Assembly (NCBI RefSeq): GCF_937616625.2 | Contig: NC_065573.1 | Coordinates: 12,973,001 to 13,037,000 of the forward strand | Source: Mercurialis annua | Lineage: Eukaryota > Streptophyta > Magnoliopsida > Malpighiales > Euphorbiaceae | Direction of reading: 5' to 3' | DNA: 64,000 nt | Shown here: positions 1-60,220 of the stretch, piece after piece | How the letters are laid out: every line of letters starts with the position of its first letter | Numbering within the stretch: position 1 is the stretch's first letter | The notes under the pieces: generated by a model | What the model saw: the letters and a program-made list of their open reading frames with translations, nothing else | The model's database searches: none | Told to the model about the DNA's origin: nothing | Translations under genes and position numbers: made by a program

Positions 1-1690
1 AGAGCTGCTTTATTGTCACAGTAAAGCATGATAGGAGAAGAAACTGAAATCTGCAAATCTTTAAGTAAGTAACTGAGCCAGAGAAGTTCACATGTGGTAG
101 AGGCCATGGAACGATATTCTGCTTCAGCAGAAGATCTAGAAACTGTAACCTTCTTCTTACTCTTCCATGATAAAAGAGAATTTCCCAAAAAAATGCAGAA
201 ACCAGTTACTGATTTTCTGGAATCAATACAGGAGGCCCAATTAGAATCACTGTATGCCAAAAGCTTGAGATCAGTGGCAGCAGGGTAGAACAGACCTAAG
301 TTGGGACAACCTTTCAAATACTTGAGAACATGTAAAGCAGATTGCCAATGAGATTCTCGAGGAGCACTCAGAAATTGACTAAGCACATTAACTGAGAAAC
401 TCACATCAGGTCTAGTGATATTCAAATAAAGCAACCTCCCAATTAACCTTCTGTACTTATTAGGATCAGTGAGCAATGGACCATCAGAACCAGAAAGTTT
501 GACATGAGAAGGTAAAGGAAAAAGAACTGGCTTAGCCCCAGTTAATCCTGAATCAGTTAAGATGTCTAGCACATATCTTTGCTGATTTAAAGTAATACCC
601 TGAGATGTCCTATGAACTTCAATTCCCAGAAAATAAGTCAAAGGACCTAAATCCTTGATTGTAAAGTCTTTGTCAAGGAACTGCTTAACAACATTGAGTT
701 CTTGAAGATTGTCTCCTGTAAGTAAAACATCATCAACATAGACAACCAAAGCCAAAAAATGACCTCCCTGGTGTCTTGTGAATAAACAATTATCATTCAC
801 AGATTGAGTGAAACCAATATGAAGTAATGACTCAGTAAATCTGATGTTCCATTGCCTAGAGGCTTGTTTCAGTCCATATATGGATTTGACCAATCTGCAT
901 ACTTCATTGGACTTTGCTTTTGTATACCCCTGTGGAGGTAACATGTACACCTCTTCTTCTAATGTACCATGTAAAAAAGCATTGTTAACATCCAGTTGTT
1001 CTAGAAACAACCCCTTGGATGCAGCCAAAGCAATTAAAAGTCTGACTGTAACCAGTTTAGCTACAGGAGAAAATCTTTCTTTGTAATCCAAACCTTCTAT
1101 TTGATTGTAACCTTTGGCTACTAAACGGGCCTTTAATCTATCAACAGTCCCATCAGCTTTGTGTTTCACTTTATACACCCATTTTGAACCAATAGCAATT
1201 TTATCAGCAGGTAAAGTAGTTAAAATCCAAGTGTTATTTTTATCTAAAGCATCCAATTCCAATTGCATAGCATTTATCCATCTAATATCTTTTTGAGCTT
1301 GATTATATGAAAAAGGTTCTTTAACAGTACTAGAGCATTCAGAGTCATGCAAAGTAGGTTTGGAATTGGACAGTAAAGAGTATTGAGGTAAAAGGTAAGG
1401 TTGACCAGAAATTGGCTTGACAGACTGAGCTGCATTTAAGTGATAGTCTTTGAACCAAGCAGGTTCTGTAGTTTGTCTAGTTGATCTTCTAAGAATTGGA
1501 ATAGAATTAGGTGTAGTGGGAATTGGACTAGAACAAATAACAGGAGACACAGATGTAGAAGAAGATTGATGAGGTAAGATTGTAACATCAGTAAAAGAGG
1601 AATGAGAAGTTTCAATTTCAGAGGTAGAAACTGCAGGAAGGACTGATGTTTCAGAATATTGTGGAATTGCAGAATAGGGAAATTTATCCT
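1..1690 (-). CDS. copia polyprotein C-terminal part: reverse transcriptase and RNase H (partial)
   Basis: Minus-strand translation gives the copia RT signature YVDDVLLTGD at about 762-720 and, near the window start, the RNase H motif LYCDNKAA. Upstream, at about 1290-880, is the start of the RT domain, reading ...KWVYKVK... and ...LDVNNAFLHG.... In this family the RT copies the element RNA and RNase H removes the template. The frame differs from the integrase frame; the shift lies near 1685-1700 in an A/T run. The RNase H domain is cut by the window edge, so the C-terminus cannot be judged. Confidence 0.88.
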
Positions 1691-4033
1691 CAAAAAAGTG
1701 ACATCTCTACTGACAAAGTATTTGTCAGTCATTAGATTCAGCAATTTGTATGCCTTTTGAGTAGAGCAATACCCTAAGAACACAGATTTAATACCTCTAG
1801 CATCAAACTTATCTTTAGAAGGTAATAAATTCAAAGCATAACACAGGCACCCAAAGACTCTAAGATTTGAATAATCTGGAGGTCTAGAATAGAATTGTTC
1901 ATATGGAGTTTTCCAATTTAAAATCTTCATAGGCATTCTATTGATCAAATAAGTTGCTGCTAACAGAAAATCACCCCAAAAATGTTTAGGCAAGTGTGCC
2001 TGAAGTCTCAGAGCCCTGGCTACCTCAAGTAGATGTCTGTGTTTTCTTTCTACCACACCATTCTGCTGTGGTGTATATGGACAGGTTATATGATGTATGA
2101 TTCCTTTATCTTCTAAATAAGATGATAAAGTGGTATTGAGGAATTCCAGACCATTGTCTGTTCTTATTACTTTAATTTGTGTCTGATGTTGATTGGAAAC
2201 CATTTTGAGAAAATTGATAAGAGTTTGGGTACATTCAAGTTTTTGTTTGAGCAGAAAAGTCCAAGTGACCCTAGTTCTGTCATCAACTATGGTTAAAAAA
2301 TAGTGGGATTTTTGTTTGGAAGGATATTTGTATGGTCCCCATAAATCAATGTGTAAAAGATCAAAAGGGAGTTTGGTTTTAATCTCTGAATTGGGAAAAA
2401 CAAGTCTGTGTTGTTTGGCTGCAGAACAGATTTCACAGGAAGTTTGAGATGGAAAATTATGAATCAAAGAAGGAAGATGAGAAAGAGTTGAAAAACTAGC
2501 ATGACCAAGTCTAGCATGCCATATGGAAAAGTTGGAATGAACACTAGAAGCATTAACAAGAGAGTAGTTAGAATCAATAACAACAGATCCTTTATTTATA
2601 TCAAATGCAGCAGAAAAATTATTCATATCACAAGTTTTGCTTACAAAACTATTAGAATCAAGTTTATACAACCCTCCAATTTGATTTCCTTGTGCTAGAA
2701 TGGCTTCAGTCTTCAGGTCCTGTATGAGGCAACATTTTGAAAAAAATGTCACCTTAAAAGGATTGGTTTGAACTAACTTGCTAACAGATAACAAATTGTA
2801 TTTGAAATCTGGCACAAATAAGGCATCTTTTAAAACAAGATCCTTATCAAGAACAACATTTCCTGTTTTGTTCACTGAATTAACTGAACCATTGGGTAGA
2901 CAGACTCTAATGGGTTGTGGAAGGGTATTTTTGGTTGAAAGTAGGTTAGGATTAAAAGTCATATGGTCTGAAGCTCCAGTGTCTACTATCCAAGAACATT
3001 TATCATATAATTCAAAGGCACTAAAAGCATAAGATGAATGCATACATGCATATGTCAATGGATCTCCATAAGTTCTTTCCACAGTACCAGCAAACTTTCC
3101 TGAACTGTTCCCTGCCTCCATGGATGATTTCCCTTTAATGAACTTTAGCATTCCTGCCAAAGTGTTCTCCATCTGTTCATAGTTGACAAAACTTTCTGGT
3201 GGTTCCCAAGTTTCTCCTCTGTTCTCATAGTTTCCATCATTAGCATTGTTGCTGTTACCAGAGTAACTTTGAGTTTGTGCTGCCACTCTATTATACTGAT
3301 GTTGTCCTTTTGGTTTATTACCTTTATACCAATCTGGATATCCAATAAGTTTGAAACATCCAGCTTTAATGTGTCCATCTTTGTTGCAATATTCACAATG
3401 TCCTTTCTCCTTATTATCTCTTTTGTATTCTTGACTGTATTTCTTCCTATTATCCCAGTTGTTCTTATTATGGCCTTGTGGATTTGCATAGAGTGCTGTG
3501 CTATCCACCAAAGGCATACTATTTCCACTGATCTGATTCTGCTTTTCTACTGACAATATCATTGAATATGCCCTGTTTTCATTAGGCATAGGATCCATCA
3601 ACAATATCTGATTTCTAGAGTGTTCATACTCCTCATTCAGTCCCATCAAGAACTGAATCAACTTATCCTGAGAATTATAATCTGCTATTGCTTTCCCTAA
3701 ACCACAAGTGCAATTCTTCATAACTCCACAAGTACAAGTAGGCATCACAGTCATACATCCAAGTTCATCCCACAAACTTTTCAATTTTGTGAAATAGACT
3801 GAAATTTCATCAGTTCCTTGGATCATCAGTGCTATATCTTTCTTTAACTGATAGAGCATTGGTCCATTACTCTGACCAAATCTTTGTTTCAAATCATTCC
3901 ATAAATCTTTTGCAGATGATGCACATAAAAAAGCAGCTGATAACTCACGAGACATTGAATTGAGTAACCAGGAAATCACCATACAATCTACCTTTATCCA
4001 TTGTTCATAACAATCTAATTCTTCATCAGGCAT
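1436..4033 (-). CDS. copia polyprotein: gag, zinc knuckle, protease, integrase (frameshifted)
   Basis: An 865-codon frame. The gag region fills about residues 1-210. A CCHC zinc knuckle (CEYCNKDGHIKAGC) is at 213-226, the aspartic protease motif DTGA at 351-354, and the HHCC pre-integrase finger uses H506, H511, C533 and C536. The integrase core has D563, D626 and E662, the D-D-35-E spacing of copia integrases. After about residue 780 the translation stops resembling the family and becomes leucine-rich, because the true frame continues elsewhere (near 1690). The start given here is internal: the real gag N-terminus is in the frame at 4269-4048. These proteins would form the virus-like particle and insert the cDNA. 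The copy is inactive as read. Confidence 0.93.
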   Translation of the reverse strand: MPDEELDCYEQWIKVDCMVISWLLNSMSRELSAAFLCASSAKDLWNDLKQRFGQSNGPMLYQLKKDIALMIQGTDEISVYFTKLKSLWDELGCMTVMPTCTCGVMKNCTCGLGKAIADYNSQDKLIQFLMGLNEEYEHSRNQILLMDPMPNENRAYSMILSVEKQNQISGNSMPLVDSTALYANPQGHNKNNWDNRKKYSQEYKRDNKEKGHCEYCNKDGHIKAGCFKLIGYPDWYKGNKPKGQHQYNRVAAQTQSYSGNSNNANDGNYENRGETWEPPESFVNYEQMENTLAGMLKFIKGKSSMEAGNSSGKFAGTVERTYGDPLTYACMHSSYAFSAFELYDKCSWIVDTGASDHMTFNPNLLSTKNTLPQPIRVCLPNGSVNSVNKTGNVVLDKDLVLKDALFVPDFKYNLLSVSKLVQTNPFKVTFFSKCCLIQDLKTEAILAQGNQIGGLYKLDSNSFVSKTCDMNNFSAAFDINKGSVVIDSNYSLVNASSVHSNFSIWHARLGHASFSTLSHLPSLIHNFPSQTSCEICSAAKQHRLVFPNSEIKTKLPFDLLHIDLWGPYKYPSKQKSHYFLTIVDDRTRVTWTFLLKQKLECTQTLINFLKMVSNQHQTQIKVIRTDNGLEFLNTTLSSYLEDKGIIHHITCPYTPQQNGVVERKHRHLLEVARALRLQAHLPKHFWGDFLLAATYLINRMPMKILNWKTPYEQFYSRPPDYSNLRVFGCLCYALNLLPSKDKFDARGIKSVFLGYCSTQKAYKLLNLMTDKYFVSRDVTFLRINFPILQFHNILKHQSFLQFLPLKLKLLIPLLLMLQSYLINLLLHLCLLLFVLVQFPLHLILFQFLEDQLDKLQNLLGSKTIT

Positions 4034-4047
4034 AACACATTTTCCAT

Positions 4048-4269
4048 TTATAAACCTAGTTTTGTCTTTGCTCCTAACGCAATTTTCATAGTTTTACTCC
4101 AGCTAAAATAATTGTTGACCGTTAAAGGAGTACTCACCAGAGTCAGGTTCGGATGATCCGATGATTGCAGCAAGAGTGGATCTCCATTATAGAGATTTGA
4201 GTTTCTCATTGCATTTCGATTACCTCCATTGCTGTTGTTACTGCTATTTCCAGTATTCTCCATGTTCAA
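4048..4269 (-). CDS. copia gag N-terminus
   Basis: A 73-codon frame beginning MNMENTGNSSNNSNGG and containing the copia gag motif NYFSWSKTMKIALGAK. It lies 75 bases inside the primer-binding site, the expected place for the element start codon. It stops at 4048, and the continuation of gag is in a neighbouring frame from about 4046. A small deletion in the T run at about 4050 would explain the break, so the two frames were probably one polyprotein. Confidence 0.85.
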   Translation of the reverse strand: MNMENTGNSSNNSNGGNRNAMRNSNLYNGDPLLLQSSDHPNLTLVSTPLTVNNYFSWSKTMKIALGAKTKLGL

Positions 4270-4849: not shown

Positions 4850-5455
4850 ATACATCAGTTAACAAAGAGCACTCATGGAGATGGAGATGCTAAGAAACCT
4901 CGACTTTGGAGTCAAGATGACGAGATTGTTGTCTTACAAGGTATTCTTCATTTTTCTAAAGACACTCAAACTGATCCTACCAGGGACATTGCTTCTTTTT
5001 TCCATTCTATTATCAAATCCCTTCATTTTCCTGCTACTCTCACTCAATTCAAAGATAAGCTCATGAGATTGAAAAGGAAGTTCAACCATCATGCTCACAA
5101 AGATATGGCCTTTTCTAACACTCACTCTCAAAAAACATTCAATTTGTCTAAACAAATTTGGGGTGCCCAAGGATGCATTATTAGTGTTAACCCAAAAAAG
5201 ATGTCTGCTTCTGAATTGGTTATGAATGTTGGCAACAAACCCGACTTCAAGACTCTTCCTTTCCTTAATATTGGTCTCACTCAAATGGGGGATTATGTGG
5301 TCATGAAGGCTCTCAAGATGCTCCACACACATGAAAAAGCCCACCTTCAAGCCAAGTTGAGGAAATTGCATGCGGCTGACTTGCAGCTATTTATTGATCG
5401 CCTTCAATTTCTCAAGGAACATGCGCAGCTGATCATCGCTTCCTATAACGACTGA
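4850..5455 (+). pseudogene. GeBP-family (DUF573) transcription regulator, 5'-truncated
   Basis: An open frame of 201 codons with no ATG before codon 72. It carries the GeBP/DUF573 pattern: LWSQDDEIVVLQGIL, then DPTRDIASFF, LTQFKDKLMRLKRKF, TFNLSKQIWG, and a C-terminal helix ending LKEHAQLIIASYND. Members of this plant family bind DNA through this domain. The usual acidic, low-complexity N-terminus and start codon are missing, and the frame opens 11 bp past the Stowaway MITE, so the gene is a fragment. The conserved part has no stop, so either loss was recent or a downstream start at 5063 is used. Confidence 0.8.
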
Positions 5456-21685: not shown

Positions 21686-23960
21686 CAAAGCCTAAACCGG
21701 ATGTAAACGTTTGATTGATTGATTTTATTAGGTGATCTTGAAAAATCTATAAAACTGTTACTACGTTTTCGTATTAGTCCTAAGATGTCTAAGTGATGTG
21801 CTGTAATTGCATTAATGGGCCAATTTTAGGTGATTAGTCCTTTAACCGGCTATTATTTGATTTGGAATGCTTTTGGAAAGCGTAAACAATGCTGGCATGC
21901 TCAGGGGCAGCTTGATATACATATAAGGTTAGAAATACTCGTTAACCTCGTTGACTTTGAGTGCCTGGCACTAGCGCGGGTTTTAACCATTGGTCAGTTC
22001 AGAATTGATTTTCGGTCATATCACGAGAGTTGTGCGTCTCGTCGATCCGGTTTTACTGGTTTGATTTGGAGTCAATTCCAAGTTTGGGTTAGCATGGAAT
22101 CGGCTCCAAAAGCTGCTGGTTTGCTTGGCCTCGGGCTTGTGGGCCTAGTTTATACACTATGTTACATATTTAGAATTTTGGGTCTGTTTTACATCAGGTC
22201 TGGCCCGTAACATTACAGAATAATAATCTATTCTAAATTATCTACGTCCGGGTTCAAACCGGGCCTGATTCAGAGTTGGATGAGTTCAAAAACACGTTTG
22301 GAAGTTTGGATCGAAGTCTGGAAGATCTGGGAGATGTTTATGGAGATGCTGATGAACGAAGAACACGACGCCGGTGTGATTGCCGGCGCCGGAAGTATGC
22401 TGTGGTGGCACCGCCACTTTATTTTGGTGTCGCTGCTGGTTCCAGGGGCGGCGGCAGTTCGAGACAATAGTTTCGAGATTTTTGTTTTGCTTCGTTTTCA
22501 CTCGTTTCAACTCCATTGTTCATGTAAGAGTAGTCAAAACCGCATACAATCGAACAAGAAATTCAAATATGACATTTATAGAGTGTTCAAAGCTGATTTG
22601 AAGAAAAAGTTATTGATTGGCAGCAACCATTTTTAGGTCTTTATTCATGACAAAAAAGCTAAAAACACCTAGAGACATGCATTTTAAGGGCTTTAAATCA
22701 ATTGGGTTACTGGATTTGAGAATAAACATGATTAATTACAACAATTAACATGCCTATCAACAATTGTATGATAATTTGGCAATCAAAATATGAAGTCTAG
22801 CATGATAATGATTATGGCATAAATCAACAATAAGCTAAACATACATCCTAATTCACATAATCACATCAATTATGACAATTATGACATACAAATTCATGGA
22901 AAATCAAAGGGATTAATTAAGAGGGTCCTCAGAATTACCGGTTTGAGTCCTTGACTTGTTTTCTGGCAAAGTGGATGCGGAATCCAGCTTCGAGTCTGTG
23001 CAGGGCTGTGTTCTTGGAGAATCAAAGCGTTCTTACGTGTTTTAAAGACTGGAATTGAGTGATTTGTGTGTGTTGTGCTAGGGGAATTCGGCCAACTTAG
23101 GGTTTTTTTCTAGGGGGATCGAATATTTGCTCTATGATTTTTACCTTTCTGGTCCGACCCTTGACTTAGCCGACTTAAAGCTGAATATATTGTGGTTAAT
23201 TAGGTCTAGGGTTTAGCTAGAGTCTTCTAGGTTTTAAACTGTTTAAGTGATAAGTTTTTAGGTATTAGGATTAGTTAAAAACACTTATTATTTTATTAAA
23301 TTCGGATTTAAGCTTGATGGCTAAGTAAAATAGTGCTAAAAGTGAATTTTGGTGCCTGAAAGTGTTAAAAAAGGCTACTAATGTCACGACCCAAAATCGA
23401 GGGCCGCGACCGGCGCTAGGGAATGGGAATTATAGTTCCGAATCCCGTAGCAAGCCTGAAATTCACTATAAATTTTTCGCAATTATGTTATTATACGGAA
23501 GCATTTAATTATGGAAACATTACTAGCCATTTTATAAACACTGACTATGTATATCTAACATTGTTATAATATTCATTTTATATACAACAGCAATTATAAA
23601 CATTTTCCAACACTATAATATTATCCTAGGTCATGACTGGTCACACAATGTACTACTGCAGCGGTCACGGAAGTCGGACTATATATGGCAAGACAGACTC
23701 CCGGCAAAACAATGGACTTCTAGTCACTCCAAGTCTAGGTACCTGAAATGTTTAAAAACCACGGGGTCAGCTTAAGCTGAGTGAGATATACCTTACTAAC
23801 GGTATTATCACAAAATAACATCGCAAGTGAAAATCATTTATTCAGACAAACATAATATCATTATATTTCAAACAAAGAATTGATCCGATAGAAACCTTAA
23901 TCTTAAACTCCTAACCTTTCCTAACATGTATCGTATTCATATCAAATCATTGTAATCCAA

Positions 23961-24143
23961 GTGGTACGGTCCCGAGATAGTTCAACCGAGTTACTCGTTA
24001 CCACGTGGCATAGTCCCGAGATAGTTCAACCGAGTTACATCATGCCACTGCTTAATCCCAATGTGTGAGTCCCGAGATAGTTCAACCGAGTTACTCACCA
24101 GATACGGGTCCCGAGATAGTTCGATCGAGTTACCTCGTATCTG
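23961..24143 (-). repeat. four stem-loop modules in the LTR
   Basis: The core CCCGAGATAGTTCAACCGAG occurs four times (starts near 23971, 24015, 24071, 24111). Each is flanked by its own inverted pair: GTGGTACG/CGTTACCAC (one bulge), GTGGCAT/ATGCCAC, GTGAGT/ACTCAC and CAGATACG/CGTATCTG. Stem sequences differ but pair, while the core is constant. The second LTR carries the same array at about 29025-29207 with a few substitutions. Confidence 0.85.
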
Positions 24144-24281
24144 CCAAAATTATAATCCTTCTTTCCGATACCCAAACATATTCCATTTCATAATCATAAT
24201 TATGATCAACATTTAATGAGCTCATATCAAACATTTCTATATACACGTATCTAGACTCTTATAGACACCGGTGATCACACG

Positions 24282-24302
24282 ACCTATTGACGCCCAATAG
24301 GT
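24282..24302 (-). repeat. conserved hairpin in the LTR
   Basis: ACCTATTG and CAATAGGT are separated by ACGCC. The same hairpin, with one loop base changed, is present in the otherwise diverged LTR at 59122-59140. Confidence 0.75.
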
Positions 24303-25461
24303 AGCTTGTTTCTTCGGATCACACACCAATTTCAAACATAGAACAAACAACAACAAAATACTACAATTTGATCCAACACCAAATATATAATTCATACTCC
24401 GTGTATCTCACGGTAGAATAACCATTTAGTTCATACAATCTCAAATCACAATAGTTATTATATAATGCGATGTATTTTTATAACTTATAAATAAAATATT
24501 TTATAATATACTAATTGCGTAATAATACGCGAGAGTAAAGTATACTCACTCCTTGCTTTCCAATCCAAATCATTTACACGCATTAGTCTTGGCCGAATAC
24601 TCCTAGGCCAAAACCGTCGATCCCGTCGCCTCTCGGTTTGTCTGTCACAAACGAGGTTCAAAAATGCATTTAAATTAAATTGGCATTATAAAATCAAAAC
24701 TACTAAAATTAATATCTTAAGTTAAGTTCCCTTAACTTCAACCTATCTATAACGCTCAATTTATCCCTTAGAATCCTCTCAAACGTCCAAATTCACTTCG
24801 TCGCGTTTTTACGTCAATTTCGCCTTTTCGTTTTTAAATCTCAAAATGCTTAACCTTAATATATTTTTCCTTAGTATTTTGAGTTTAAAACAGCAAATAC
24901 AATCCTTCGTGTCCTTACTTTAGGTTCACCCCTTTGACCTTAGTCGAAACGCACTTAATTCGCTAAACGTTATCTATTGATTCTTACTCGGTTTAAACAC
25001 GATACTAAAGCAACATTTGAAATTCGTTTAGCATAAATATTACACTAAGTCATTAACATTATTATCAACTTAGGACATCCCTATTACACCTTCTACAACC
25101 ATTTTACTTATTTATTTTGATATCACATTTTTAACATAAGTTTCGTCATTTACGTTCTATGTTTAAAACGTCAATTTTATGGTTATTCTTTTAACGTTTT
25201 AATCGATTTAAATCAGCCTATAACTCAATATAATTACCTATATATCAACTTCTAATAATGTCATAATACCTAGCCAATTCCAACTACAAATCATTAACAT
25301 ATTACCCTAAAAATTGCTTTTACGTCAAGTTTGATTCCTAGTTTCGTAACTCCGTTAACTATCGAAACAATTATGCATTCGAACACGAACGGAGGGTGGC
25401 ATCAGCCCCCTCCCCCTCAACTCAGCCCTCCCCTGTTTTGACAAGGGAGGGGCCGGCCAAT

Positions 25462-25520
25462 GCCCTGGTGCGTCGCACCAGGGCTGCTGCTCACGGCAGC
25501 AACTCACCGTGCACGGTGAG
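25462..25520 (-). repeat. GC-rich palindrome cluster in the LTR
   Basis: A 23-base palindrome with arms GCCCTGGTGCG and CGCACCAGGGC around one T (25462-25484) is followed by GCTGC/GCAGC and by the perfect palindrome CTCACCGTGCACGGTGAG (25503-25520). The neighbouring CCCTCCCCT/AAGGGAGGG pair adds another possible stem. The cluster is repeated in the second LTR at 30526-30584. Confidence 0.85.
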
Positions 25521-26559
25521 AAATCCGGCCACCATGGCTGGAAAACAGCCACCAAACACCCTTTAATCTCACCAAATCATCAACCCAAACACAACTCTCA
25601 CAACCTCACTCAACCACCCTTAATTTTAGTTTAAACTTAACCAAAATCATGCCAAAACTATTAATTATAAGCTTATAAACATCATTTTCAACCATTATCA
25701 CCAAAACAGAAAATTACAGCAGCAACCCTAACCTTAAGATGAGATTTATACCTTGATTTATTGGGCTCAATCAGTAGGTATGGTTCTCCTCTTTCCGTTG
25801 CCGCAAGAATCGACCAAAACCGAGCTAAAACGGATAAGTTATGGTGAATTAAAGTTTGGTTCCCATATGGAATTGAGATGATGAAGATGGTGAGGGTTTG
25901 AGCTGAGAATTGGGGTGTATATTCTGATCTTAATCATGTAATTGACTATATATATATATTTATGGTAAAAATTCACTTCAACCCTTAATGAAGCCACCTC
26001 CTCAACATTTAGTCCCAAGCTTTTCTTTTGCTCAATTTAGTCCAAAAATCACTCAATCGTTAAATCTCGATAAATTTCGTATTATTTATGTCCAAATAAA
26101 TAATACTCTTCCGCCAACTCACTATTTAGACTCCGCTAATCGATTTTGCCAAATTTTGGCTAAAATGATCAATTTTCCAATTTGAGCGAAAACGACGATT
26201 TCCGTCACTTTTTCATCCTTATTTTTCTTTTATGAATATTGACATCCAAATTATCAATATTACTTTCTTAATTACCGATTCCCGTCAATAATTTATTTAT
26301 TTAATATTTTTCGGACAATAAAATTCCATTTTCTAATTTTTCGGGGACTTAATCTTACTTTTAATTCCAACTTTTCCTTCGTCCCGTTTAATTAATTCAG
26401 GCATTACAAATATTGAAATTCCTTCTTTAAATTTCAATATCGACCTATCCTCGTTCTTAATTACTTAATTCCTTCGCTAACTCCTTTTTCTAGTCGCTCT
26501 GACTATTAATTTAAATTGCGTTGCTCACTTCGGCAACGTCAAACGTACGGGTTATTACA

Positions 26560-26574
26560 TTCTTCCCCCCTTAT
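26560..26574 (-). promoter_or_regulatory. polypurine tract
   Basis: Minus strand reads ATAAGGGGGGAAGAA directly before the 3' LTR TGTAATAA. It is preceded by AAATTCGAGGACGAATTTTT, a sequence seen near the PPT of many plant chromovirus-type gypsy elements. Confidence 0.9.
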
Positions 26575-28423
26575 AAAAATTCGTCCTCGAATTTTTTTCC
26601 AATACTTTAAGTACCTTCTTAGGTAAACTTCCTACTATTTTCTTATACGTTTTTCTTCGTGATTTCTGTCACGCGTAGACTTGTCGCTCCTCCGCGGTAC
26701 TTCAGTCGTCATATTTCTTTTGTATCGTACTTGATACAACTTTTAAACGTCCTCATATTGTCCTTTATTTATTAATCAAAATCTTAATTTGATTAATTTA
26801 AAACAATTTAATTGAATAACTTAATGTCTTAAGTTATTTTTAACTTATCCAAAATTGCTCTTCTGGTCAACTTTGACCCTTAAAATTGCTTTTGTCGAGT
26901 AGCTCGTTTGTTAAACAAAGTTGACAGTCTTATAGTCCTCAATGCCATCTTCAACTTTCATTTGAACATCGAGTACAAAATAATCCTCTTATATTTTCAC
27001 TTTAATCTTCATGTAATGTATCTTTCTGATAGCCTATTGTCCCACATTTTACTCCCTTTCTTCGTTTACTCTAATCGAGTATTAAGCGTTAAACGCGCGT
27101 ATTATCCAATTCTTCTCAATACTACTCGTGTCACGCATTCTTTTCGGGTTTTTACGTTTTATTCTTTTCATTTTACGCTTCTTACTTTCTCTCCGTCTTA
27201 CCCTTTTGTAAGTATAATCATAAGTATCTCATCGACACCTCTTATTACTTATCTCGATCGATTCCATAACGTTTTATTATTATTTAGGCTCAATTCTTTT
27301 GTTGGGGTACATTTTATCACATATGTTCATATTTTTATTATTGTCGCAGGGCTTTACATCGGAGTTCTCTTACACAACAAAACAAAATTTCCAATCATCT
27401 TTGATTGGTTTGGCCGGCCATTTCAAACTTTTCATTTGATTTCAAATCACTTTGAAAACTCTAATACAATTGTGGCTCAGAGTGATGACATCTCTCATCA
27501 CTAAAGAGTTGCTCGATAAAATCACGTTTTCTTTCAACGTTGTACAAATATGATGCATGACCTATATTTTGAAAAACTATTTTTTTTTGTACAAAAATTG
27601 TATGCATTGCTAACGTGATTATGATTGGCCATATGCAATGTCTGAGCATAATTGCACCGTTAAAAACATAAGATTTTCATATCTTTTACAAAACCGTAAG
27701 TCCCTCCAGATTACACACTCTGCGACATTATTGGCTTTTTTTTTTATTGGAGTTTATTATTATTTTGATATTGAAAGTTTTGTCGTCTGCGAACACTTGC
27801 CTAAGTGTTTCGCAGCCAAAACTATTCCTCTCCAACACTTCAAATCAAACATCCCGCTCGATACCTTCTAATGTCCATCTATCTTTACGATCCACCTTCT
27901 CGACCACATACTTGTATCTCGTAACCCTTAGGCATACATGTCGATTCTTCACAACAATCTTTATTCACTAATCGCTTACCATCCTTCGTGATAGATAAAA
28001 CGTAATATTAGGAATTACGTTTGACGATATATGTATTTTGTGTGTTTTATGTGTTTTTCTTTCAATTGTTATACCATAACCTATACATAGGATAAAGCCT
28101 AATAAACATAGTTTATCACAATCTATTTCTATAGGCAATGCCTACACGATATACTATTTATTATATGCACACCATATCGATCAAACACAATTACGATCAA
28201 TCATATAGCAAAACAAAGCAATTAACCATATGAAATATGCAGCACACAACTTATACTATTCACGTGAACACGTGAATCAAATCAATCGCATATTAAAGCA
28301 AAACGACACAAACATTTCAATCAAACACATATAGTCAATAAGGCTCGACTCTATACGCTGCAGTAGTTCCTAGGTACTTAAGGTCAAACAGACACTTTTC
28401 ATAGACTGGCAGTGGTAACTGGA

Positions 28424-28441
28424 CCAACTGCTCTGATACCA
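28424..28441 (-). promoter_or_regulatory. primer-binding site (initiator tRNA-Met)
   Basis: TGGTATCAGAGCAGTTGG on the minus strand, four bases inside the 5' LTR end. It fixes the orientation of the element. Confidence 0.93.
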
Positions 28442-28445
28442 ACTT

Positions 28446-31400
28446 TGTCACGACCCAAAATCGAGGGCCGCGAACGGTGCTAGGGAATGGGAATTATAGT
28501 TCTGAATCCCGTAGCAAGCCTGAAATTCACTATAAATTTTTCGCAATTATGTTATTATACGGAAGCATTTAATTATGGAAACATTACTAGCCATTTTATA
28601 AACACTGACTATGTATATCTAACATTGTTATAATATTCATTTTATATACAACAACAATTATAAACATTTTCCAACACTATAATATTATCCTAGGTCATGA
28701 CTGGTCACACAATGTACTACTGCAGCGGTCACGGAAGTCGGACTATATATGGCAAGACAGACTCCCGGCAAAACAATGGACTTCTAGTCACTCCAAGTCT
28801 AGGTAACTGAAATGTTTAAAAACCACGGGGTCAGCTTAAGCTGAGTGAGATATACCTTACTAACGGTATTATCACAAAATAACATCGCAAGTGAAAATCA
28901 TTTATTCAGACAAACATAATATCATTATATTTCAAACAAAGAATTGATCCGATAGAAACCTTAATCTTAAACTCCTAACCTTTCCTAACATGTATCGTAT
29001 TCATATCAAATCATTGTAATCCAAGTGGTACGGTCCCGAGATAGTTCAACCGAGTTACTCGTTACCACGTGGAATAGTCTCGAGATAGTTCAACCGAGTT
29101 ACATCATGCCACTGCTTAATCCCAATGTGTGAGTCCCGAGATAGTTCAACCGAGTTACTCACCAGATACGGGTCCCGAGATAGTTCGACCGAGTTACCTC
29201 GTATCTGCCAAAATTATAATCCTTCTTTCCGATACCCAAACATATTCCATTTCATAATCATAATTATGATCAACATTTAATGAGCTCATATCAAACATTT
29301 CTATATACACGTATCTAGAGTCTTATAGACACCGGTGATCACACGGCCTATTGACGCCCAATAGGTAGCTTGTTTCTTCGGATCACACACCAATTTCAAA
29401 CATAGAACAAACAACAACAAAATACTACAATTTGATCCAACACCAAATATATAATTCATACTCCGTGTATCTCACGGTAGAATAACCATTTAGTTCATAC
29501 AATCTCAAATCACAATAGTTATTATATAATGCGATGTATTTTTATAACTTATAAATAAAATATTTTATAATATACTAATTGCGTAATAATACGCGAGAGT
29601 AAAGTATACTCACTCCTTGCTTTCCAATCCAAATCATTTACACGCATTAGTCTTGGCCGAATACTCCTAGGCCAAAACCGTCGATCCCGTCGCCTCTCGG
29701 TTTGTCTGTCACAAACGAGGTTCAAAAATGCATTTAAATTAAATTGGCATTATAAAATCAAAACTACTAAAATTAATATCTTAAGTTAAGTTCCCTTAAC
29801 TTCAACCTATCTATAACGCTCAATTTATCCCTTAGAATCCTCTCAAACGTCCAAATTCACTTCGTCGCGTTTTTACGTCAATTTCGCCTTTTCGTTTTTA
29901 AATCTCAAAATGCTTAACCTTAATATATTTTTCCTTAGCATTTTGAGTTTAAAACAGCAAATACAATCCTTCGTGTCCTTACTTTAGGTTCACCCCTTTG
30001 ACCTTAGTCGAAACGCACTTAATTCGCTAAACGTTATCTATTGATTCTTGCTCGGTTTAAACACGATACTAAAGCAACATTTGAAATTCGTTTAGCATAA
30101 ATATTACACTAAGTCATTAACATTATTATCAACTTAGGACATCCCTATTACACCTTCTACAACCATTTTACTTATTTATTTTGATATCACATTTTTAACA
30201 TAAGTTTCGTCATTTACGTTCTATGTTTAAAACGTCAATTTTATGGTTATTCTTTTAACGTTTTAATCGATTTAAATCAGCCTATAACTCAATATAATTA
30301 CCTATATATCAACTTCTAATAATGTCATAATACCTAGCCAATTCCAACTACAAATCATTAACATATTACCCTAAAAATTGCTTTTACGTCAAGTTTGATT
30401 CCTAGTTTCGTAACTCCGTTAACTATCGAAACAATTATGCATTCGAACACGAACGGAGGGTGGCATCAGCCCCCTCCCCCTCAACTCAGCCCTCCCCTGT
30501 TTTGACAAGGGAGGGGCCGGCCAATGCCCTGGTGCGTCGCACCAGGGCTGCTGCTCACGGCAGCAACTCACCGTGCACGGTGAGAAATCCGGCCACCATG
30601 GCTGGAAAACAGCCACCAAACACCCTTTAATCTCACCAAATCATCAACCCAAACACAACTCTCACAACCTCACTCAACCACTCTTAATTTTAGTTTAAAC
30701 TTAACCAAAATCATGCCAAAACTATTAATTATAAGCTTATAAACATCATTTTCAACCATTATCACCAAAACAGAAAATTTCAGCAGCAACCCTAACCTTA
30801 AGATGAGATTTATACCTTGATTTATTGGGCTCAATCAGTAGGTATGGTTCTCCTCTTTCCGTTGCCGAAAGAATCGACCAAAACCGAGCTAAAACGAATA
30901 AGTTATGGTGAATTAAAGTTTGGTTCCCATATGGAATTGAGATGATGAAGATGGTGAGGTTTGAGCTGAGAATTGGGGTATATATTCTGTTCTTAATCAT
31001 GTAATTGACTATATATATTTATGGTAAAAATTCACTTCAACCCTTAATGAAGCCACCTCCTCAACATTTAGTCCCAAACTTTTCTTTTGCTCAATTTAGT
31101 CCAAAAATCACTCAATCGTTAAATCTCGATAAATTTCGTATTATTTATGTCCAAATAAATAATACTCTTCCGCCAACTCACTATTTAGACTCCGCTAATC
31201 GATTTTGCCAAATTTTGGCTAAAATGATCAATTTTCCAATTTGAGCGAAAACGACGATTTCCGTCACTTTTTCATCCTTATTTTTCTTTTATGAATATTG
31301 ACATCCAAATTATCAATATTACTTTCTTAATTACTGATTCCCGTCAATAATTTATTTATTTAATATTTTTCGGACAATAAAATTCCATTTTCTAATTTTT

Positions 31401-31618
31401 CGGGGACTTAATCTTACTTTTAATTCCAACTTTTCCTTCGTCCCGTTTAATTAATTCAGGCATTACAAATATTGAAATTCCTTCTTTAAATTTCAATATC
31501 GACCTATCCTCGTTCTTAATTACTTAATTCCTTCGCTAACTCCTTTTTCTAGTCGCTCTGACTATTAATTTAAATTGCGTTGCTCACTTCGGCAACGTCA
31601 AACGTACGGGTTATTACA
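28446..31618 (-). repeat. 5' LTR of the non-coding gypsy element
   Basis: 3173 bp, the near-identical partner of 23382-26559 at an offset of 5064 bases over most of its length. Differences include a shorter TA tract and a substitution that weakens the second stem (GTGGAAT). Confidence 0.95.
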
Positions 31619-49429: not shown

Positions 49430-50265
49430 GAATGAAGGATCACTTTACCCCTTCAACTTGGCACAAAGTATCAAAAACGTCCAAATTAGCAAAACGAGAT
49501 CACTTTTATCCTGAACTTGTCCAAAATGGTACAAAACCACCCCTCCCCACTCTCACCCAAGAGAGTGAGATACACTCTCCGGTTTAATGGTTTTCCAAGG
49601 TGGTTTTTGATGGAAAAAGGATTAAAATGGTCCTAATTTTTTTAAAACATTATAAATTAATACCGAATAATTTTCAAAATAAAAATTGATCCCTTTAATT
49701 TAAAATTTTATATAACAAATTAACTCCCAAATTTCATATATACAACAAATTAACCCCAAAATTTTATATTTTTAATAAAAAAAATTAATTTTTTTTGTAA
49801 TCTCTTTTTAAAAACTGAACAGGTCCGTGGGTCGTGAGCCACAAGTCTGTTCTTCTTCCTCAAGAACAGACCCCGGTCTGTTCTTGAAGAACAGACCCGC
49901 GTCTGTTTTTTAAGAACACGGCGGCGCCGTGTTCTTGAGAGAATAAATCGCTGTTTTCTCAAGAACAGATCTCCGACAAGGAGGAGCTCCTCCTCGCCGG
50001 AGATTGGAATTTTTTTTGTGAAAAAAGTCTAAAAGGATCCCTAGATTAATTAGGGTTAAATTATAATTAATTATTATTTAAATATAATTTATTAAAGTAA
50101 ATTATGATTAATTAGAAACCCACTCTCCAATTAAGGTGCCACGTCAGCATAGGTGTGTTTTTGTACCGGTTTTGACAAGTTCAGGGTAAAAGTGATCCGG
50201 TTTCGCTAATTTGGACGTTTTTGATACTTTGTGTCAAGTTGAGGAGGTCACGTGATCCTTTGTTC
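49430..50265. mobile_element. Mutator-type MITE F
   Basis: 836 bp with TIRs of about 110 bp (shared CAAAGTATCAAAAACGTCCA and AACTTG blocks). The 10-bp flanks GAGATTTTAT (49420-49429) and GAAATTTTAT (50266-50275) match 9/10. TIRs are related to MITE E at 14342-15490. Confidence 0.9.
49861..49994. repeat. palindrome cluster inside MITE F
   Basis: Perfect palindrome with arms CAAGAACAGACC and GGTCTGTTCTTG (49861-49886), another with arms AAGAACACGGC and GCCGTGTTCTT (about 49912-49936), and AGGAGGAGCTCCTCCT (49979-49994). The last shares its core with the cluster in MITE D. Confidence 0.85.
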
Positions 50266-53080: not shown

Positions 53081-53595
53081 ATTTATGTAATACCTCAAAT
53101 ATTTTAAGATAATTAAGTCGTGCCACGTGTCGTGAATTCCGATAAATTAAGTTAAGAAGAATTTAATTTAATTATATCGGAAATTGGAATAATTTTATTT
53201 AGCTAATTAGCGGGATTAAGGAAATAACTTCGGAAATTAAAATAAAATAAATTATAAATCCTATAACAGAATTTATTTGATTTATAGTATTTATGGTAAA
53301 AGTCTCGAATCAATCGGAGAACTTTTAAAATTTGGACGCGGATACGTTTTGGGCTAAATTGCAACTTTTGGAAAAGTTCAAGGACCAAAATGTAAATTAG
53401 CTAATTAAGCCCCGAGGATATGATTAAAGGATCATTGATGGAAAACGATAATTTTGGAATCGTATTATTTATTTGGATATAAATAATACGTACGCAAGTG
53501 AGTGAAAGTAAATAAATAATCGCTAAGTTAAAATAGATTGTTTTAATGAGAATTGGTTAAAGTTAAAGAGATGAAGGATTGAAATAGAACATTAG

Positions 53596-53599
<4 letters not shown>

Positions 53600-53634
<35 letters not shown>
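53600..53634 (+). repeat. (TA)n tract, possible LTR promoter
   Basis: About 17 TA units, 0.5 kb from the LTR start. The element at 58167 has (TA)n at the same place after GAGAATTGGTT...TTAGCCAA, so the tract may serve as the TATA region. Confidence 0.6.
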
Positions 53635-53636
<2 letters not shown>

Positions 53637-53992
53637 CCTTCAGATGAAGGAATGAAACCTCCAGAACCAAAACCTTCCTCTCTTTTCCATTTTCGACGCT
53701 GAGTTACGGTTCGTCGCTCGATCTCCGTTTCTCGTCCGTTTCTGACGTTCTATAACTCGAAACGATCGTATTTCAATGGCGGATCACGGTAAGCTTGACG
53801 TTTTATCGTTTGGATGGATTAATTTCATTATATATCGAGTTAAAGTTTTAGGCCACGAAACGATTTTATCGTTTTATCGATTATAGGATTGAATTTGGAT
53901 GTTTTGAATAGAGATTAAGCATTTTGGATGTGTTAGGAGCGTTTTTACGCCTATAGCACGTCGGAATGCCCCGGGAAACAATTCCGGGGATC

Positions 53993-54117
53993 GTGCACGT
54001 GCACACAAGGTGCACGAACGTGCACCATCAATGGTGCACGAACGTGCACCTAGGTATGGTGCACGACCGTGCACCACTAGCAAGTGCACGATCGTGCACC
54101 ACAAGGCACGAACGTGC
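53993..54117 (+). repeat. six-fold array of GTGCAC palindromes in the LTR
   Basis: Palindromes start at 53993 (GTGCACGTGCAC), 54009, 54033 and 54058 (GGTGCACGAACGTGCACC and one-base variants), 54084 (GTGCACGATCGTGCAC) and 54106 (GCACGAACGTGC). Spacing is about 22-26 bases after the first. Spacers differ while the palindromes are kept. Confidence 0.92.
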
Positions 54118-55162
54118 ACTCAGTCTTTTTACCTATTTGCTCCAATGTGAGAACCCGATCCGTATACGCGTATCGAGATTGAAATCGATCGATTATCGAT
54201 TGATTGAATCGTTAACCTAATGAGGTTAAACGTGAGATAACTTGGAAATGATATTCGATTCGTAAACGAATTAGATATCGTTTATCGGGATAAATACGTG
54301 AGAAGCACGACGGTTAAAGAGTGTGGCGTGTCGTGTCTCAAGTATATAATTAATCCTAGAATCGGATTCTGATATGAATCAAACGTTTTGAAATTATTTT
54401 AGATCCGGCGAGACAAGAGGCAGCTGGACAAAGAGCTCGGGAAGCTTGATGTTTCTAAGGCCCTGAAGTGTTTTTGGATAAGCGTTTTCTGTGAGTACAT
54501 TTTAATTACTCGTTAATATTCATAAAGCCGCGTATTTTCATATACGGACGACTATATGAATACTTATATGTTTAATAATATGTTTGAACAAATATATGTA
54601 TGTATGCTTTGAAAATGATTTACTTTCCGTACTGTGTTATTTTAATAATAACATAAATAGATGAAGAGAACATACATGATTAAAATACTGGGAAAGGGTT
54701 AAGCAATATAAATCGTAACCAAATATCGAATAATATACGAGTATCGAACCAAATATGCACGAGAAAAGTATAGTACATTCCTATATGTACTATTATTCAT
54801 ATGTTTATAAAGAAACATAGTACGTTCCCATACGTACTTTTAATTATAACGAATACCCATGTGTGCGTGTGATATAGATGTATGATTGTAGATTTTAATG
54901 TGCATGTCATGGTCCATAAAAGATCAATACAACAGAACGGAAAATATAGAATTAAGTAATGAACGTAAAATGAGAATTGTACGATGGTACAGTCAAACAT
55001 AAGAACTGAGATACAAGGTTGATCTTGGTAGAGGTATCCCGAGACATGTATCTTACCCATTCTCGATAATAGTCCTCGGGACTAATATGAGGATAAAATC
55101 AAGCATCATATATCAAGAATTAATGTGAGATAAGAGTAACAATTAAGATATAATAATAAGAC

Positions 55163-55309
55163 ACATCGGTTGGCACGGCTATCGATGTCAGGTGATTAAA
55201 AACACATCGGTTGGCTTTGCTATCGATGTCAGTTATGCGTAACGCATCGGTTGGCTTTGCTATCGATGTCAGACAGGTGAAACACATCGGTTGGCTTTGC
55301 TATCGATAT
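55163..55309 (+). repeat. four stem-loop modules in the solo LTR
   Basis: The core GGTTGGCTTTGCTAT (first copy varied) lies between ACATCG and CGATGT arms four times (55163, 55204, 55244, 55284). Copy 3 has GCATCG, a possible G-U pair; copy 4 has one mismatch. It occupies the place of the 23961-24143 array and shares TCGGTTG...CTATC with the complement of that core. Confidence 0.82.
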
Positions 55310-56673
55310 CAGAAAGATGAAGTTAGAGAAGCTTAACGAGAAAAATAAAGACAATCAAAACTATAACAGTAAACCAAACATGACAAGTATGTACGTAGTA
55401 TAAACGTACATGAGATATAGGAATGAGGCAAGGATATCAGGTACGTCTATAACATAAACGTTTAGTTTATGACACGTACGTGACTATGGAAATATGAATG
55501 CACATACGAAGTATGTTTGGAAGTAATATCGTATGAAGTATGATCCAAAAAGAATATTTTTCTACATAAAGATGTTTTCAAACGTTTTCACCCTTTATGT
55601 AATATTACTTGTAATTATGTGTATCACTCAGTTTTATACTGACCCCGTTGTTACTCCAATTTTTACAGGTTGAGTTAGGTACGATTTGGAGAATGAAGCT
55701 TCCGAAGTTTTAATTCTCGGAAGTATTACGAGTCATGAGACCAGGTTCTCATTCTAGCAAGTTCGCAGTAGTTTAGAGTAGACAGACTCTATTTTGTAAA
55801 ACGCTTTAACTCTGATGTATATTTCAAACAGGGGTCGTGCGTATTTTGATATTATTGTGATATATAAAACATGATTTAATTTGCGAAAAATTTATAGTCG
55901 TTTTAGGCTTGCTACGGGTTTTGGAGCTACCACTCCCATTCCCTAGCGCCGGTTGCGACTCATGATTTTGGTTCGTGACAGTTTATCTATTTTTTCATTA
56001 GTTAGTTTTTAGGATAAGCAAAAAAATAAAGCCTTTGTGTCTCACTAGAATAGGTTTTCTTTAGTTGTTGAGTATTAGTCTGTTTTCGTTTCCCTATTTT
56101 GTAGGGGTTTGTCTCTATAAATCGTTATTTTTTCAAATTAATAAAGTCTACACAAATCAATCAACAAAAACCAATTCAAAGCCCTATGCTTTTCTATCCC
56201 CAAGCGATTGGTTAACTTAGGAGTAGATGGACATCAATCCCGCTTAGGTTTTTTAACCTCCGGATCGATACTGTTAGATTTAGTATAGTTTGGTTACTTT
56301 TGTTCCTTTTGCGGAACAAGTTCGCAGATCAAGTTCGCGGAACACGTTTGCTGAACACGTTTGTGGAACAAGTTTGCTTGCGGAACAAGTTCGTGAGACA
56401 AGTTTGTAAGACTTGTTTACGAGATAAGTTTGTGAGAGTTGTTTACGAGACATCTTTTGTTCCACCAGTAAAACATGATCGATTCGTTTCGATTAGGGAA
56501 ACATCTTTTGATTCACCAGTGAGACCAAATCGATTCGTTCCGCTCACGCAAACATCTTTTGTTCCACCAGTGAGACTTGAACGATTCATTCTGATTAGAG
56601 CATCAAACCGAGACAAAACCCAATCATAAATTCAAAGATTCGAGTGGCATATTATTTTCACGCGAACATCTTT

Positions 56674-57405: not shown

Positions 57406-58148
57406 ATGAAGTACGGCGAGACTGATCTCTATAAACCTTTGAGACACATGAAATATAGTGTGACCAATCATTTGGCGGATCAAATCCAAACGCCGGAGGA
57501 GATCACCTTGTCGAGTCATTTGGCGGATCAAATCCAGACACTAGAGGAGATAAGCTCATTGAGCCATTTGGCCGATCTGATTAAAATGTCGGAGATCACC
57601 TCGCGAGTCATTTGGTGAATCAAATCCAAACACCAAAGGAGATCAGCTCATCGAGCCATTTGGCCGATCTGATCAAAACGTCAGAGATCACCTCATCGAG
57701 TCATTTGGTTGATCTAATCCAAACGTCGGAGGAGATCACCTCGTCGAATCAATTGGTCGATATGGTCCAAAAGTCGGAGATCACCTCGTTGAGTCATTTG
57801 GCGGATCATATCCAAACGTCGGAGGAGATCACCTCTCATAATCATTTGGTCGATCTAATCCAAAACGGTGGAGGAGATCACCTCATCGAGTTGATTGGCC
57901 GATCCGATCTAAACACCGGAGAAGATCAGAATTTGAGTCCACTAGCGGATCAGATCCAAACACCGAAGGAAATCAACATGATACATCTATGGGTGAATGA
58001 AATCCACATACCGAACAAGTTTGACTTCACTTATTTTTTGCACGAACAACCCAAAATTGTGGAGACAAGGCCAAACCAAGAAAATAATAAGGGTTGCAAC
58101 AACATCAACAAAGGGAGACCTTTGTTCTCTCATAAAAAAGAAAACTAG
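57406..58148 (+). pseudogene. repeat-encoded gag region, frameshifted
   Basis: Two overlapping frames (57406-57618 and 57612-58148) encode about 12 copies of a 15-18 residue unit such as SSSHLADLIKTSEEIT, from a minisatellite of about 48-54 bases at about 57464-57960. The C-terminal 60 residues are unique, ending GRPLFSHKKEN. The repeat unit is helical in character. One indel separates the frames. No enzyme motif is present. Confidence 0.6.
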
Positions 58149-58873
58149 GTCAAGAGGTTAGCAATCTGTCACGACCCAAATTATTGAGCCAAGACCGGCG
58201 CTAGGGAATGGGAGTGGTAGCTCTAAATCCCGTAGCAATCCTAAAACTACAATAACTTTTTCACAAATTAATTATATTATTATGTATAAAATGTTTCCAG
58301 AAAATTCATTTAAACATTGTGATTAAAATATCAAAATCTCATACTCCCTTTCTGAAAACTTATACGAAAAAAACCAGGGTCTTACAAAGCGATATCCCAT
58401 ATCCAGCACTGCCATGTTTCTAGTCATAAATACGACCAATTCCATTCATGGCAATTGGTGTAGAATTCAAACGGATAAAAACGCATCTTTATTACTAAAT
58501 ATCAGAGTTTACATCTAAAATACCGTTTAAAATCAAAATTTTATTCATATACTGACACCTACAGACTACTGCAGCTCTAGGGACTTATACTTTGTGTAAG
58601 TCAAAAGACTTCCAACATAAAGGAGATGGTCTGTCTGATCCGACTCCAATCACCTGAAAGACATCAAAAGTGAGGGGTCAGTATTTAGGAAAATACTGAG
58701 TAAGTTTGCATATTACTAACGGTATTATATAAAAGAAAACACAATATTGCATGCTCAAAACATATGAAAATAATATAATGTTCTCAAGCGATAGATCCGA
58801 TCGAAACCCTGAACTTGAACTCCTAACCTTTTGTACTCCAATCATTTCCATATCAAATCATTTCACATCCAAC

Positions 58874-59014
58874 GGTCCGGCTCCGTGATAACTCAACTGC
58901 GTTAGCCGCGACCAACCTTTTAATCCCAAGCTATGGATCCCGGGATACTTCAACCGAGTTCAACCCACTAGATACGAGTCTCGGGATACCTCAGCCGAGT
59001 TCGCTCTCGTATCT
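58874..59014 (-). repeat. three stem-loop modules in the LTR
   Basis: Diverged copies of the CTCAACCGAG-type core are flanked by GGTCCGGC/GCCGCGACC (one bulge), CTATGG/CCACTAG (one bulge) and the perfect 9-bp pair AGATACGAG (58970-58978)/CTCGTATCT (59006-59014). Confidence 0.78.
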
Positions 59015-59121
59015 ACATTCATATTCCAACTTCCATATTTATCACTTATCACATATCGTTTTCATATTATCGACAAAAATTTAGGCAAACTAGACTGACT
59101 CAAATACTGGTGATCACACAG

Positions 59122-59140
59122 CCTATTGACACCCAATAGG
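59122..59140 (-). repeat. conserved hairpin
   Basis: CCTATTG/CAATAGG around ACACC; counterpart of 24282-24302. Confidence 0.75.
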
Positions 59141-59730
59141 TAGTTGGTTCCTTCAGATCGTACACCAGATTCATATATTCAAAACAATCAATAAAATAAT
59201 ATATTATACATTCGAATAATATAAATGCGAGGTATTTGATACTAACATTCATAATATATGAAAATAGCTTTTATAAATAATACGTGAAAGTAAAATGCAA
59301 CTCACAGTGACCGCTATCCAAATAATAATATTATTCTCCAATCACGTAAGTTCCCCGCGTTATTCGATCCTTTAGCTATCCCAACTCGTCGACTTGGTAG
59401 CTCGTCGACATGTCAGTTACTTATCCAAATTACCTCTACGTTTAATTCATAAACGTAGACTTAGTGCTAAAACTCTAAGTTATGAACTTAGGTTAACACG
59501 ATCTTATTCCAAATACGACTCTTAACTTTGATAACCTCTTAATTGTATTCTTTTACTTAGTCGAGATACTTATTATATTCCTCTTTTTGATTCCCAACTA
59601 TTGGTTCTATATTCAAATTTCACCTTTTCGAGGTCTGTGATTCATTTTTAATGTCCGACGTACTTGAAGTCGGAAAACTAGGTCAAAACAGGGCGGAAAT
59701 GCTCAAACTGATAAGTTCGTTGGCTGACCC

Positions 59731-59788
59731 TGTGCGTCCGCACACTCTGGTGTGCGCCCGCATACTTTGGTGTGCGATCTTTCGCACA
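59731..59788 (-). repeat. GTGCG palindrome cluster in the LTR
   Basis: TGTGCG/CGCACA around TC (59731-59744), GTGTGCG/CGCATAC with one mismatch (59750-59765), and TGTGCGA/TCGCACA around TCTT (59771-59788). Confidence 0.82.
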
Positions 59789-60157
59789 GCCCGGAATCCG
59801 TTACCAGTCACTCCGACGTGCTCCAACTCAATTCTGTCATACTCCCATATCATTTTAACACAAATCCAAATTCAAATTTCATCAAAAACGACAATAGAAA
59901 CGTGATTTAAGAACGTTCGATTCAATTGCAACGTTATAACTTCAAAACAGCCGTTATTCAGAAATTCTTGCAACAAAAACGTCGAGCTTATGTTGCTTTG
60001 AAACTCAAAGATGGTAGAGGATTGAATTCCGAGCAAATCGATATAAAGAACGCGCGATTTCGACGAGAAACGGCGAAACGACGTTGAACCGAAATGGATA
60101 GCCACTTTTCTGCCTTTTCTGGATTCTTCTTGCTTCTCCATCATCTGATTTATATGA

Positions 60158-60158
<1 letters not shown>

Positions 60159-60217
<59 letters not shown>
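60159..60217 (-). repeat. (TA)n tract in the LTR
   Basis: About 29 TA units, 0.52 kb from the LTR start; counterpart of 53600-53634. Confidence 0.9.

Positions 60218-60220
<3 letters not shown>

Follow-up and report, generated by a model that had tools for sequence, protein, structure and literature searches.

LTR retrotransposons of the region

The window, a stretch of 64,000 nucleotides of the Mercurialis annua genome (contig NC_065573.1, positions 12,973,001 to 13,037,000), contains a GeBP-like gene (4850-5452), 100% identical to a M. annua protein, and several LTR retrotransposon sequences. An 885-codon frame of the Copia gag/integrase type is located at 1436-4093, for which a reverse-transcriptase match was not found. 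Repeats of other kinds comprise about ten tandem copies of a 48-bp unit (57468-57928) and the tandem inverted unit AAGAACAGACCCCCGTCTGTTCTTG (49862-49918).

A complete non-autonomous LTR element (element 1), with the target duplication ACTAA, occupies positions 23382-31618 on the minus strand. Its 3' LTR (LTR1, 23382-26559) and 5' LTR (28446-31618) are 99.2% identical. The PBS TGGTATCAGAGC is found just inside position 28446 and a purine tract (PPT) adjoins position 26559, which makes the minus strand the sense strand of element 1; the strand assumed for the LTR at 23382-26559 in an earlier note on this DNA was therefore wrong. The copy at 28446-31618, which was absent from that note, bears the same four stem-loop modules as LTR1. 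The 1,886-bp interior of the element contains no sense frame longer than 71 aa. An open frame of 206 codons (26884-27504), antisense to element 1, has no Pfam match.

The window also contains the 3' LTR of a second element (58167-60741, minus strand), a solo LTR (53086-55980, plus strand) with the target duplication ATTTA/GTTTA, matching at four of five positions, and a fifth LTR on the minus strand, truncated at position 64000, where the window ends. The hallmarks of Ty3/gypsy LTRs are present, namely, TG...CA ends, a tRNA PBS, a PPT and a 5-bp target duplication. The family may belong to the Tekay lineage, a name based on the LTR end and the PPT sequence only. A Ty3-type Gag was identified in two related elements only, L042 and L028, the window element being without a coding frame. 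The Gag of L042 (cluster 2) matches the profiles Retrotrans_gag (2e-17) and Ty3_capsid (1.3e-07) and starts 263 nt past the LTR, and the frames from L030 and L085 gave no match.

A TATA-like stretch (25940-25960, minus strand), located by alignment and a motif list, is the presumed promoter of LTR1, and the alignment places it at a similar position in three LTRs. A palindrome, GTATTATTTAT...ATAAATAATAC, at 60327-60354, is conserved in the three LTRs, with counterparts in the solo LTR and in LTR1, and sits upstream of the TATA-like stretch.

Stem-loop modules in the LTRs

The earlier note described four modules at 23961-24143 with differing but pairing flanks, and these are present, with stems that are partly bulged. 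All are read on the minus strand: module A (CAGATACG pairing with CGTATCTG, 24099-24143), module B (GTGAGT with ACTCAC, 24065-24098), module C (GTGGCAT with ATGCCAC, 24005-24048) and module D (GTGGTAACG with CGTACCAC, bulged, 23961-24004). The 20-nt core, CTCGGTTGAACTATCTCGGG in the sense direction, is exact in three of the four LTR1 modules and differs at two positions in the fourth; the loop sequence of the array is UUGAACUAUC. Core matches with up to three mismatches occur nine times in the window and not once in 100 shuffles. The 5' LTR of element 1 carries the same four-module array at 29025-29207 on the minus strand, one module having a broken stem pair.

The three modules with pairing stems that had been reported at 58874-59014 were found as well, in the LTR at 58167-60741 (58874-59015, minus strand): A at 58969-59015, B at 58935-58970 and D at 58874-58913. 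The stem of the middle module has 6 bp, including two G-U pairs. Taken together, the seven modules of the two minus-strand LTRs pair with their own partners at -68.6 kcal/mol, compared with a mean of -35.4 kcal/mol for swapped partners, and two of 20,000 permutations pair as well. In a comparison of LTR1 with the LTR at 58167-60741, for which the arms were placed by hand and bulges were left out, 23 of 24 homologous outer pairs are kept; nine of the 24 varied, three of these on both sides, and all three are still paired (Monte Carlo p 0.017).

The claim that the solo LTR has the same architecture held in part. Its four repeats are present (55161-55312, plus strand), and three of them share the inner hairpin CAUCG/CGAUG, the fourth having CGAUA for CGAUG; specific outer stems are lacking, as 11,644 of 20,000 permutations of the four modules pair as well at the outer flanks.

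A search of the window for Rfam families yielded none at the gathering score, and three matches below threshold within 23382-24600, the best with an E of 0.62, were rejected as evidence of a known RNA family. A kissing contact between the loop and other parts of the element was rejected, no 8-nt complement being present. Searches of several viral and prokaryote collections gave no relatives; others of these searches gave three matches without LTR context and one match in Streptomyces. The core part UCUCGGGA is self-complementary as RNA when G-U pairs are counted, and the form UCCCGGGA, found in some relatives, is fully so; judging from these letters, it could pair between two RNA molecules.

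Covariation of the outer stems across the family

The M. annua genome (451 Mb) was searched with the pattern ACTCAG-N3-16-CTGACCCC, which describes the hairpin immediately downstream of the array; it gave 6,279 matches compared with three for the reversed control. The family set comprised 64 distinct related LTR sites forming 22 clusters at 85% identity; most of the sites lie within the initial 10 Mb of a single contig or are among the best LTR1 matches, so that they are not a random sample, and in two clusters (L056 and L057) the upstream sequence is not LTR-like. They yielded 48 distinct loop-bearing modules, reduced to 28 non-redundant ones, from which three hand-added window modules were left out as duplicates. 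The loop is repeated two to five times per array.

Own-partner pairing of the 28 modules amounts to -209.3 kcal/mol, and that of swapped partners to -117.1 kcal/mol (sd 13.5), with none of 20,000 shuffles as good. Two of the 28 look spurious (L013 -580 and L027 -147); they are included in this test and excluded from the next, in which 26 modules were shuffled only within homologous slots and none of 50,000 shuffles was as good. Within single slots, which were assigned by hand, shuffles as good numbered 77 per 50,000 for A, 1,375 for B and 446 for C and D pooled. The claim of covarying stems around a conserved loop is thereby upheld family-wide, in partner shuffles that leave shared ancestry in place and with loop positions 3 and 7-9 invariant by construction, being fixed by the loop pattern. 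The RNAalifold check proposed in the earlier note misaligned the three window arrays and gave no covariation support. A covarying stem-loop structure is, on the comparison of these sequences, well supported.

In several clusters slot B is occupied by a short hairpin without the core. Such hairpins were located by the anchor CC(Y)GTATCT(A/G), present in 44 of the 64 sites, and not by pairing. All 11 distinct core-less sequences (18 sites) form perfect 5- or 6-bp hairpins with one of five stems (GTGGC, GTGGGC, GTGGGT, GTGAGT or GTAGGT, with their complements) and a loop of TGG or TAG. In another set, seven short hairpins of this kind have 42 of 42 cells paired and three of six pairs with double changes, these seven being the fully paired rows of 14 that had been preselected for 5/6 pairs.

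Strand preference and origin of the palindromes

The outer stems comprise 317 Watson-Crick, 10 G-U and 11 A-C positions, a count that includes many near-identical copies from one cluster. The antisense strand also passes the 28-module partner test (0 of 20,000), and this, together with the lack of a G-U bias, means that the outer stems bear no sign of selection on the RNA strand. The energy of the own stem is lower in sense than in antisense in 19 of the 28 modules, higher in eight and equal in one. The inner 5-bp stem forms 111 of 130 pairs in sense and 83 in antisense, its covariation being weak (399 of 20,000 shuffles as good). In each of the four arrays of the window, the sense strand gives the better fold. 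Compared with shuffled sequences, array folding gave z values of -0.59, -2.82 and -0.14, so that two of three are no better than shuffled, and the folding energy of single modules is ordinary. Bulk folding energy was accordingly dropped as evidence for structure. The lack of an outer-stem G-U bias and the mostly ordinary folding leave room for an origin of the palindromes at the DNA level or by mutation.

At the DNA level, the modules could be enhancer repeats like those in the LTRs of Tnt1 and Tto1, in which case the palindromes would be incidental. The core contains words that we presume to be MYB-like (CNGTTR) and GATA-like (CTATC), it is conserved as sequence and tandemly repeated, and the outer stems pair equally on both strands. 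However, enhancer repeats do not predict position-specific compensatory changes in the stems, nor a stem without the core at the same place in some relatives, nor the better pairing of the inner stem in sense RNA, and this explanation is considered unlikely.

Alternatively, template switching during reverse transcription may perfect palindromes and thereby give covariation without selection. The mostly Watson-Crick stems are what such repair would leave behind. However, LTR1 and the LTR at 58167-60741 have the bulge of module D in the same position, although the neighbouring pair has changed from A-T to C-G, and arrays persist across clusters that are less than 85% identical, making a mutational artefact decidedly improbable. 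It is more improbable still, and by far, that the hairpins feed small-RNA silencing or serve as decoys: hairpin arrays in transcribed repeats are in general plausible Dicer substrates, but at about 6 to 11 bp these stems are short for the purpose.

A predicted intron inside the LTR

The array is located close to the 3' end of the LTRs. In the three kinds of LTR present in the window it is flanked by GTGAGT on one side and by CTGACCCC...YAG/GT on the other (the slash in YAG/GT and similar motifs marks the predicted splice point). In LTR1 the predicted intron begins at position 24549 (GTGAGT), where the GC content falls from 0.40 to 0.25, and ends at position 23743 (TTTCAG/GT) on the minus strand. 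The corresponding predicted introns run from 29613 down to 28807 in the 5' LTR of element 1 (minus strand; the base after AG is T), from 59305 down to 58654 in the LTR at 58167-60741 (minus strand) and from 54491 to 55668 in the solo LTR (plus strand), with a branch hairpin at 55626-55646. At the donors of the window LTRs the GC content drops from 0.39-0.40 to 0.23-0.27, and the distances from the predicted branch A to the end of the AG are 24, 24, 24 and 26 nt. The fifth, cut-off LTR has an acceptor of the same kind (branch hairpin and TTTGTAG/GT at 63934-63979, minus strand).

In each of the three LTR comparisons donor aligns with donor, the alignment score of the LTR1 and solo LTR donors (35) lying below the shuffled maximum of 43. 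The acceptors map in two of the three, being offset by 10 in the pair of LTR1 and the solo LTR. Across the family, YAG/G is found at the predicted acceptor in 21 of 22 clusters, one representative each, in a search that passed over the first 8 nt after the motif (5 nt in a further acceptor search), including AGs beside the branch point. A strict test of the 3' splice site, with no skipping, was passed by 16 of 22 clusters compared with 31 of 213 other YTRAC words, and in five of the six clusters that failed, another AG lies 11-13 nt downstream. On visual inspection the largest GC drop coincides with a GTGAG word in the same context in 15 of 22 clusters; in clusters 0, 13 and 15 the candidate donor words lie outside the scanned range, and in clusters 18-21 no GTGAG word was seen in the donor context.

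A 5' splice site, branch point, pyrimidine tract and AG are thus all present at the level of motifs, and from these it is likely that the array lies within a spliceosomal intron wholly inside the LTR. Exon-exon junction patterns from two families, one of uncounted size, had no matches in the genome, which fits spliced RNA that is not copied and equally RNA that is never spliced. Nor did protein P0002 yield any sign of splicing. The suggestion that the array is located downstream of the presumed promoter agrees with the upstream position of the TATA-like stretch; a plain leader location does not stand, as the array falls inside the predicted intron.

The branch hairpin and other conserved helices

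The predicted branch point A (23767) forms part of ACTCAG-hairpin-CTGACCCC at 23763-23782 on the minus strand. Among 13 distinct branch hairpins of a single length (13 of 25 types, with only three different inner stems), 104 of 104 cells are paired, none of 500 shuffles is as good, and four of eight pairs show double changes; the CAG/CTG end pairs are set by the search pattern and were not counted as evidence. The full set of 25 types comprises 15 with 8-9 bp, six with 4 bp and four with the three pattern-fixed pairs only.

A possible closing helix was noticed by eye between ACAUCGCA (24466-24473) as the 5' strand and UGCGAUGU (23818-23825) as the 3' strand, both on the minus strand; the two are complementary and about 650 nt apart. 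A script found it in eight of 22 clusters, with A-U, G-C or G-U as the end pair, and made no call for the LTR1 cluster, where the donor had been placed elsewhere. An element of about 60 nt with the hairpin CCUAUUG/CAAUAGG (24268-24328, minus strand; counterpart at 59106-59201) lies between the donor and the array and is conserved in many LTR clusters. In the L055 version, CUCGAUG/CAUCGGG, three pairs are altered on both sides, as judged by eye.

These helices may serve the control of splicing alone: the array and the branch hairpin would give the intron its fold, conceal the branch point and restrain splicing, with no part in packaging. The predicted branch A abuts a covarying hairpin, and the possible closing helix would join the donor side to the branch side in the eight clusters in which it occurs. 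However, splicing control leaves the conserved loop and its two to five repeats unexplained, and the core-less relatives L032 and L055 retain the splice signals. As the whole explanation it is rather unlikely, though of some weight.

A possible mark of unspliced genomic RNA

The explanation that we favour, with a probability of about 0.4, is that the structured array in the predicted LTR intron is a cis signal marking unspliced genomic RNA for packaging or dimerisation by Gag; this function of the array is inferred. Transcription is predicted to start at the TATA-like stretch, which lies some 600 nt inside the LTR, and the array would then belong to the RNA leader. Part of the RNA would then be spliced, with the array and the branch hairpin removed together. 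Only unspliced RNA could regenerate the full LTR, so that a signal in the intron would separate genome from messenger, and the hairpin at the branch point may keep splicing incomplete.

The reasoning behind this proposal is that a spliced template gives an LTR without the intron; the genome copy must therefore retain the intron, and a signal inside it would be a natural mark of genome RNA. Given its position inside the predicted intron, the array is likely to act as a signal in the RNA by which the full-length transcript of the element is singled out for copying. Both the array and the splice signals persist in the non-coding element at 23382-31618, and this is easier to reconcile with a function in cis during RNA replication than with a part in Gag production. 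The best-scored 40 array copies of this non-coding element are 97-100% alike over 301 nt, which likewise speaks for such a function in cis.

A wider proposal, possible but doubtful, is that the LTR intron, in thousands of copies, is an RNA machine that sorts the transcript into messenger and packaged genome, on which non-coding parasites hitch-hike. Its parts would be the closing helix, the conserved hairpin element, the hairpins with the same loop and the branch point clamped by a hairpin.

Comparison with known systems

The LTRs of Tnt1 and Tto1 carry tandem enhancer motifs, and resemble the array in having tandem motifs within an LTR; we know of no covarying stems in these repeats. In retroviruses, packaging signals located downstream of the splice donor tell the unspliced genome from the spliced messenger. 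The separation of genome and messenger RNA is largely an open question in plant LTR retrotransposons, for which BARE, a Copia element, is the worked case that we found. It provides the precedent for the separate RNA pools and the parasitic partner of the mechanism proposed here. According to passages of the BARE paper, a single element keeps the RNA to be translated in a pool distinct from the RNA to be packaged, and a parasitic partner without Gag retains the packaging signals (PMC3735527). The same passages describe a BARE LTR with two TATA boxes, to which LTR1 and the solo LTR, with TATATAAAA near the 3' end, may be compared (PMC3735527). They also describe an alternatively spliced intron that frameshifts pol and, as far as they show, is not internal to the LTR, unlike the predicted intron containing the array; the word 'stem-loop' is absent from the text of the paper (PMC3735527).

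The packaging and dimerisation leaders of retroviruses such as MMTV are structured RNAs close to the 5' terminus of the genome, as the array would be (PMC8096270). The array differs from these leaders in being a tandem one, with a single repeated loop, inside a predicted LTR intron, and its binding by Gag is putative. Plant LTR elements are generally without introns, the notable exceptions being Ogre and EVADE; these have functional introns, as the present family is predicted to have, and the review passages on them mention no intron internal to an LTR (PMC12786077). Among titles and the opening parts of abstracts in open-licence PubMed Central, none was found that describes an array of stem-loops, or an intron, within the LTR of a plant element, and the M. 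annua literature covered there contained nothing on an LTR array or intron.

The covarying array in a predicted LTR intron offers a concrete, testable candidate for a cis signal, present in many copies. If the array is such a signal, it would account for the mobilisation of non-coding elements by relatives that do code for proteins. The array also provides a sequence handle for the annotation of such LTRs. Beyond what the earlier note described, the array proves to be enclosed by a conserved GTGAGT and the covarying hairpin at CTGACCCC, within a predicted intron internal to the LTR.
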